Source: Anaerolineaceae bacterium (GTDB taxonomy: Bacteria > Chloroflexota > Anaerolineae > Aggregatilineales > Phototrophicaceae). From it: a stretch of 64,000 nt of DNA. The first letter of the stretch is position 1; each line of letters opens with the position of its first letter. Below the pieces are notes generated by a model. That model saw only the letters and a list, made by a program, of their open reading frames with translations, was not told the origin of the DNA and did not search any database. Below are positions 12,107 to 13,546 of the stretch, piece by piece. Where the stretch lies: positions 682,001 to 746,000 of the forward strand of contig PABP01000014.1 in NCBI GenBank assembly GCA_002699585.1, given 5' to 3'. The translations under genes were made by a program, and so were the position numbers.

Positions 12107-12403
12107 CTAATCATCATCCGGTAGCTTAAAATCTGCCGGACGCAGCGTGTCCAGCACCTTCAGGATAGCTTCCCGGACTTCGCCCGGTTCCGCATGGCGG
12201 CCCAGTTCCTTTTTGCTGAAAACCAGCTCATCGTTAACTCTCACCTCAAAGCGACCGCCCTTAGATGGGATCAACGTCCATTCAGCAATAAAATATTCGA
12301 TTTCACGTTCGTTCAAGATTTGGTCCGTCAAACTGACGGCACGAGGGGTGTAGTGTCAAGCTGCACAGTATTCAACAGTGATGTGCATCAATGGCTGCTG
12401 CAT
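12107..12403 (-). CDS. SelW/Rdx-family selenoprotein with in-frame UGA (CxxU)
   Basis: Read from ATG at 12403, behind an ideal AAGGAG site, the gene runs 98 codons to the stop and contains one in-frame TGA at codon 16 (12356-12358). The product begins MQQPLMHITVEYCAAU and continues through HYTPRAVSLTDQIL to the conserved IPSKGGRFEVRV and the ELVFSKKELGRHAEPG block. This is the thioredoxin-like SelT/SelW/SelH (Rdx) fold. C13 and the UGA at 16 fall exactly on the family's CxxC/CxxU redox site. A hairpin of SECIS type starts 16 bases after the UGA. A standard gene call would start at the TTG at 12331 and lose the active site; that TTG has no ribosome binding site. The family is redox-related, its substrate unknown. 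Recoding needs SelA-D elsewhere in the genome. Confidence 0.85.
12325..12339 (-). promoter_or_regulatory. Candidate bacterial SECIS element
   Basis: On the minus strand CCGTCAGTTTGACGG forms a perfect six-base stem with a three-base loop, or a five-base stem with loop AGTTU-type sequence having G in its second position. The loop G lies about 22 bases after the UGA. Known bacterial SECIS elements lie immediately downstream of the UGA within the coding region, with a G near the top of the loop, which fits. Confidence 0.7.
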
Positions 12404-12679
12404 AAATTACTCCTTATAGTTTACGATAACCTTCTGTTTGGGACTGTTTCATTATAGCGCTTAAGTCACATATTTGCAGCAAACCGTGTAATGTTTATCT
12501 TACAAACAATATTTCTGCATTATGCTAGGAATATGAGTAGTAGATAGAAGTATGCTCTGGCAAAACGGTCATTTGCTCGGAATATCTGCAACTTGATAAT
12601 ATGCACTTCGACGAATTAATAAATCTTTATGTTTGGATGAGTCATTTTTTGCAACAATAGGGTATGTCTTACTGAAAAT

Positions 12680-13546
12680 GTGAGTGAGAAAGACAATATC
12701 GTGAGTGCCACACAAGAAATCTTCACCGAATACGTCCGCATGCGCGAGAACGGTCTGGATACCAAAGAAGCCTTGCGGGCCTTGCGCGTCTACATTGAAG
12801 GCTTGCCGTCGAATCTAAAAAACGAGTTGGCCCAACATCTGCGGGCTTGGGAGCGCGGCAGTGCCTCTCCTGAAAACAACCCGGAAGTGCCAGAACCCGA
12901 AGAAACCGAACAGTCAAGCCAGCCAGTCATTAAGCCGCTCAAGCCGCGTGGGACTGAGACGACAACGGCAGTGGCCGTCAACATTACAGAGGATACGAAA
13001 GTCAATCCGGCAGCCATTGGTTTTGTGGCTTGCCCGAATTGTGAGGCCAAAAATCAAGTTAGCGAGGTCTTCTGTTATGCCTGCGGGCACATGCTGGATA
13101 ACATCGCCGGGGCAAATGACACGCGCCATTTCGCTGCTGCTACCGATGCGCTCTACACACCCGACTACTTCAGCATGGATTCCGTCCTGCGCTTGAACGT
13201 CCGTGACCGGAGTTCCGTCTTTGAATTGCGGCCCCAACTGCGCAACCATGAACTTGTCCTGGGTCGCAGTACCGATAACAGTCCGATGGCCCCCGACATT
13301 GACCTATCGGCCCTGGGCGCTGCGGAAGCCGGTGTGTCGCGCCTGCATGTTGCCCTGCGTTATCATGTCGATGACAGTGCCCTGCAGCTCTATGACCTGG
13401 GTAGCTCCAATGGGACCTTCGTCAATGGACAACGGCTGCACCCTCGTGAAATCCGTATCCTGCGCAATGGCGACCAACTACGCCTGGGTAAGCTGGTGAT
13501 CCTCGTCAGCTACCATCACCCTGGCGAAGAATTGATGATGGGCTAA
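12680..13546 (+). CDS. Zinc-ribbon and FHA-domain protein
   Basis: This 288-residue cytoplasmic protein has a helical N-terminus (1-70), a Pro/Glu-rich linker, a zinc ribbon at about 113-135 (CPNC and CYAC pairs) and a C-terminal FHA domain (about 185-285). FHA hallmarks are LVLGRS, SRLH and DLGSSNGTFVNGQRL. FHA domains bind phosphothreonine peptides, so it probably reads Ser/Thr kinase signals, but no kinase is in the window. The start is uncertain: GTG at 12680 and GTG at 12701 are both in frame and neither has a strong ribosome binding site. A bidirectional terminator follows the stop. Confidence 0.85.
   Translation: MSEKDNIVSATQEIFTEYVRMRENGLDTKEALRALRVYIEGLPSNLKNELAQHLRAWERGSASPENNPEVPEPEETEQSSQPVIKPLKPRGTETTTAVAVNITEDTKVNPAAIGFVACPNCEAKNQVSEVFCYACGHMLDNIAGANDTRHFAAATDALYTPDYFSMDSVLRLNVRDRSSVFELRPQLRNHELVLGRSTDNSPMAPDIDLSALGAAEAGVSRLHVALRYHVDDSALQLYDLGSSNGTFVNGQRLHPREIRILRNGDQLRLGKLVILVSYHHPGEELMMG

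Follow-up and report, generated by a model that had tools for sequence, protein, structure and literature searches.

A SelW-like gene with an in-frame UGA and a conserved SECIS-like hairpin in an Anaerolineaceae genome

The locus and its reading frame

The window analysed here, a 64-kb stretch of an Anaerolineaceae genome, carries on its minus strand a short gene of the Rdx family that runs from an ATG at 12403-12401 to a TAG stop at 12109-12107 and contains one in-frame TGA. The features of this locus are as follows.

12107..12403, minus strand: predicted gene for a SelW-like selenoprotein of the Rdx family, 98 residues counting Sec16 (from the frame and the Pfam and NCBIfam matches)
12410..12415, minus strand: AAGGAG ribosome-binding site, with a 6-base spacer to the ATG (from the sequence letters)
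12356..12358, minus strand: in-frame TGA at codon 16, the predicted Sec of the CxxU motif (from the frame and conservation in 30/30 loci)
12325..12339, minus strand: putative bacterial SECIS hairpin, 6 bp, loop GUU (from folding, a shuffle test and compensatory pairs)

The read-through protein starts MQQPLMHITVEYCAAUHYTPRAV and carries the motif C13-A-A-U16; TGA16 is the sole codon of the frame that is read otherwise than by translation table 11. Two family models match this protein across the TGA: Pfam PF10262 (Rdx) at residues 7-80 (E 2.2e-17; 63.5 bits, cut-off 22.6) and NCBIfam TIGR02174 at residues 8-80 (53.8 bits, cut-off 34.2). The original prediction had placed an ideal AAGGAG site ahead of the ATG at 12403 and had described the TGA at codon 16 as the only interruption of an Rdx frame, and both statements are borne out by the sequence letters, the translation, and the family matches. 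If the UGA is taken as a stop, the catalytic residue is lost, and ordinary gene finding easily truncates a gene of this kind.

Alternatively, translation could initiate downstream of the UGA, at a site such as the in-frame TTG that forms codon 30, to give a shorter protein that lacks the upstream part. One relative (G078) matches residues 17-86 only and is free of stops, as this reading would allow; however, relatives conserve the residues that precede the TGA (ITVEYC in the window), a good ribosome-binding site lies ahead of the full-length frame, and the shorter product would lack both CxxU and the conserved stretch that comes first. We therefore consider a start after the UGA very unlikely.

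A perfect inverted repeat (GGGGTAGT-TTAC-ACTACCCC, 12080-12061, minus strand) starts 26 bases past the stop of the SelW-like gene and is probably a terminator, in which case the gene would be a single-gene transcript. Its divergent neighbour is an ORF at 12680-13546 on the plus strand that resembles an FHA-domain protein, as judged from sequence alone; a homologue of this ORF (44% identity) adjoins SelW in L022, the sole genome of the same family with a match. An Rfam scan of the 64-kb window at gathering scores returned one tRNA only.

Conservation of the UGA and the selenocysteine machinery

We searched a phylum sample of 400 genomes for the SelW-like protein (E <= 0.001) and obtained matches in 181 of them. 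In 30/30 fetched loci (L021-L050), the gene of the window included, codon 16 itself is TGA and the residue three places before it is Cys, which agrees with the earlier placement of C13-A-A-UGA on the Rdx redox motif. The fetched relatives with this TGA share 44-77% protein identity with the SelW-like gene, the nearest (77%) coming from a genome of the same family. Among eight loci from named genomes, six have TGA at this codon, four of which belong to genomes named as Anaerolineae or Chloroflexi, one to an Actinomycetota MAG, and one to a Gemmatimonadetes MAG; in the remaining two (Nonomuraea) the match is confined to residues 46-85 and does not reach the motif, and a relationship to the SelW-like gene is improbable. 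A second Rdx protein in the same genome as the window (L019) has Cys, encoded by TGT, at the position of the UGA, the residue that an alignment with homologues had been expected to reveal there.

This paralogue indicates that family members with Cys are viable, and to that extent it favours the possibility that the gene is a pseudogene or that a sequencing error turned a Cys codon (TGC or TGT) into TGA. Nevertheless, the same TGA recurs in every fetched locus with the frame kept on both sides of it, and independent errors or decay at one codon in many genomes are not credible. Since the Rdx match spans the TGA and the same TGA is kept in relatives, sequencing error or a chance frame is excluded; decay or error is thus refuted by conservation, and we assign it a very small probability.

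The wider distribution of the gene can be followed among the matches listed, which cover 145 of the 181 matching genomes. TGA-bearing matches, defined as those that contain one or more TGA codons (the codon-16 position being established for the fetched loci only), occur in 120 of these genomes, while 23 are stop-free and two (G025 and G374) have TAA or TAG only and were kept out of both classes. A selA match (E <= 0.001) is present in 120/120 TGA-bearing genomes, 18/23 stop-free genomes, and 211/280 of the sample genomes outside the TGA group; these selA matches need not all exceed the family cut-off, that of G329 reaching only E 1.2e-10. The co-occurrence of selA with a TGA-bearing SelW has a Fisher p of 1.5e-12 with kinship ignored, the relatives compared being non-independent samples, and it is only moderately informative because most genomes of the phylum sample (331/400) have a selA match.

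The genome itself (6,701,443 bases searched in 42 contigs, 96% complete) encodes all four components of a bacterial Sec-decoding system. selA (565.5 bits), selB (344 bits), and selD (380.3 bits) all score over their curated cut-offs, tRNA-Sec scores 72.8 bits against a cut-off of 47, and ARAGORN reports a tRNA-SeC with anticodon TCA (UCA in RNA). The original prediction had named a search for these genes as its check and the absence of selA, selB, or tRNA-Sec as its refutation; all four were found together in one genome. The selD gene of this genome (L017) also carries an in-frame TGA, in the motif SCAGU.

AhpC-TSA matches in this genome are stop-free in 16/19 cases and contain one internal TGA in 3/19: a peroxiredoxin-like gene with FMUPFC on contig C25 (L080), and a thioredoxin-like gene with VGUPPC that is found on contigs C3 and C12 (L081 and L082) with identical protein sequence, perhaps as a duplication. 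The FMUPFC and VGUPPC genes are further candidate selenoprotein genes, the catalytic position of their TGA being read from the motif alone; a Prx-like thiol:disulfide oxidoreductase family (PF00578, UxxC) is included in the list given in PMC13188914. Sec has been described in formate dehydrogenases of Chloroflexi, according to a passage in PMC5736913. In the present genome, where a Sec-containing formate dehydrogenase might be expected as a user of the machinery, a search for one gave no match that passed the family cut-off; an internal stop was present in 0/10 formate dehydrogenase matches, and 0/5 matches to CMD (AhpD-like) proteins carry a TGA.

As the residue at the UGA is predicted from sequence, we also weighed the possibility that this codon is read by near-cognate suppression, or that it has been reassigned to Trp or Cys. 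Against this stand the presence of tRNA-Sec, selA, selB, and selD, and the observation that other families are mostly stop-free (the 16 AhpC-TSA matches noted above and 5/5 CMD matches), with the three AhpC-TSA exceptions placing their TGA in a redox-like motif. Suppression or reassignment is thus extremely improbable compared with decoding as Sec.

The downstream hairpin and its registers

Downstream of the UGA, the transcript of the SelW-like gene can form the hairpin CCGUCA-GUU-UGACGG (12339-12325), whose stem has 6 perfect pairs and whose 3-base loop begins 22 bases after the UGA. The folding energy is -8.6 kcal/mol for the minimum, which includes a second small helix; the centroid, which consists of the hairpin by itself, has -7.8 kcal/mol. 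In the bacterial SECIS model set out in PMC13188914, the apical loop measures 3-9 nt and the upper stem 4-16 bp, the energy is at most -7.5 kcal/mol, a G occurs among the first two loop nucleotides, and the distance from UGA to loop is 16-37 nt; the hairpin of the window, with 6 bp, loop GUU, a distance of 22 nt, and an energy below the limit, has all of these properties. The perfect hairpin with SECIS spacing that had been proposed from the sequence is therefore present and fits the published model, but when taken alone it is within chance: synonymous recoding of the same residues gave an equal or stronger hairpin in 138/2000 trials, and its folding z-scores are -0.65 and -1.21. The reading of this element as a SECIS is supported by conservation and covariation, and not by the single hairpin of this gene.

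We examined conservation in the 25 distinct sequences from the 30 fetched loci, and every one (25/25) contains a hairpin with 5 or more pairs and a loop that includes GU. By the same criterion, 500 synonymous shuffles averaged 5.2 of 25 (maximum 13) when codons were pooled, and 4.3 of 25 (maximum 10) when codons followed the window's own usage. With a stricter stem score the count is 21/25, against shuffle maxima of 8 (pooled codons) and 7 (window codon use). The shuffle controls on the hairpin leave the kinship of the relatives in place.

For covariation, we used an alignment of 18 rows (A4), misfits included, that comprises 12 distinct 40-base sequences from the 17 fetched loci outside one family of the same class (f2, treated below) together with the 6 named TGA loci. 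In an earlier alignment (A2) 96.2% of cells are paired, a count that favours structure because its 13 best-fitting rows were picked by hairpin register, and in A4 the value is 89.8%. Changes on both sides are seen in 3/6 pairs of A4, a number that 15/500 shuffles reach; the covariation score is reached by 0/500 shuffles, and sliding the partner drops pairing to 51.9% or less. Individual loci vary in their fit to the common register: L041 fits, L032, L053, and L054 fit poorly, and L029 has a different best-scoring hairpin with the common one also present.

In the common register, found in the gene of the window and most fetched relatives outside f2, the loop starts 22 bases after the UGA; in sequences such as L025, whose last pair does not close, the distance is 23 bases. 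In f2, all 13 fetched loci form a different hairpin from overlapping codons, with the loop 17-18 bases after the UGA and thus inside the published range of 16-37. A hairpin 4-5 bases nearer to the UGA was observed in L031, L033, L036-L038, L040, L042, L044-L049, and L053. In an alignment of the 13 f2 loci and L053 (A3), the common register pairs 69.0% of cells and leaves one pair unformed in every row, and the second register (columns 15-20 with 26-31) pairs 96.4%. The loop of this second register is CGUGA, which shortens to GUG when an additional pair closes. Covariation of the second register in A3 is weak, with one pair changed on both sides, a result reached by 349/500 shuffles. Outside f2 (A4) the second register still pairs 72.2% of cells, without covariation, and the two registers therefore differ by degree. 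We regard it as an evenly balanced question whether the SECIS hairpin occurs in two alternative registers within one homologous gene, the hairpin having shifted with the protein and the UGA fixed; if so, this would permit a direct test of the positional freedom that SelB tolerates.

Proposed decoding and relation to known SelW-like proteins

We propose with very high confidence that the gene encodes a SelW-like selenoprotein in which UGA16 would be read as Sec by means of SelA, SelB, SelD, and the downstream hairpin. The prediction that this genome decodes UGA as Sec at codon 16 thus finds support in the machinery genes, the conserved TGA, and the conserved hairpin. In the proposed mechanism, SelA and SelD would make Sec-tRNA-Sec, and SelB would bind both this tRNA and the hairpin just after the UGA, delivering Sec at codon 16. 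The product would be a small Rdx protein with a Cys13-x-x-Sec16 redox pair that probably forms and reduces a selenenylsulphide in thiol redox chemistry. We infer Sec insertion, the binding of the hairpin by SelB, and the redox role, the last of these in bacteria from the CxxU motif. Proteins of the Rdx family have a thioredoxin-like fold. Solved proteins that are sequence relatives of the window's protein (E 6.3e-10 to 2.9e-5) are 3dex (SAV_2001), 2fa8 (Atu0228), and 2p0g (Selenoprotein W-related). The best-scoring NCBIfam model is NF041051 (SelTWH_Campy), at 81.2 bits against a curated cut-off of 88, and the protein is therefore not a member of that equivalog.

Bacterial SelW-like selenoproteins have been recorded in several surveys. 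The account of the Sargasso Sea data in PMC1088965 gives 48 SelW-like genes with CxxU, the most abundant selenoprotein family there, and calls the function of the bacterial proteins unclear; the tallies of a 2006 survey (PMC1794560) put bacterial SelW-like selenoproteins at 10 and assign to Chloroflexi three selenoproteins, each of a different family. In a 2026 review (PMC13188914), the SelW-like family (PF10262, CxxU) appears among those 'predicted with high confidence'. As these sources describe it (PMC1088965, PMC13188914), the known bacterial family resembles the gene of the window in its CxxU motif, its membership of PF10262, and a SECIS directly downstream of the UGA in the coding region; nothing essential differs, the host being a Chloroflexota-type genome and the exact sequence its own. 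Among the papers listed for Sec or selenoproteins with Chloroflexi, Chloroflexota, or Anaerolineae, none has SelW of this phylum as a subject in its title or abstract opening, and a prior report may well exist; words beginning 'chloroflex' are absent from PMC13188914 and PMC9312934.

Because bacterial SelW-like selenoproteins with CxxU have long been known, the gene of the window adds one to a known family; it extends the selenoprotein inventory of these bacteria and changes no concept. Within the phylum sample, the TGA-bearing matches in 120/145 genomes, among the matches listed, indicate that UGA-coded SelW is widespread.
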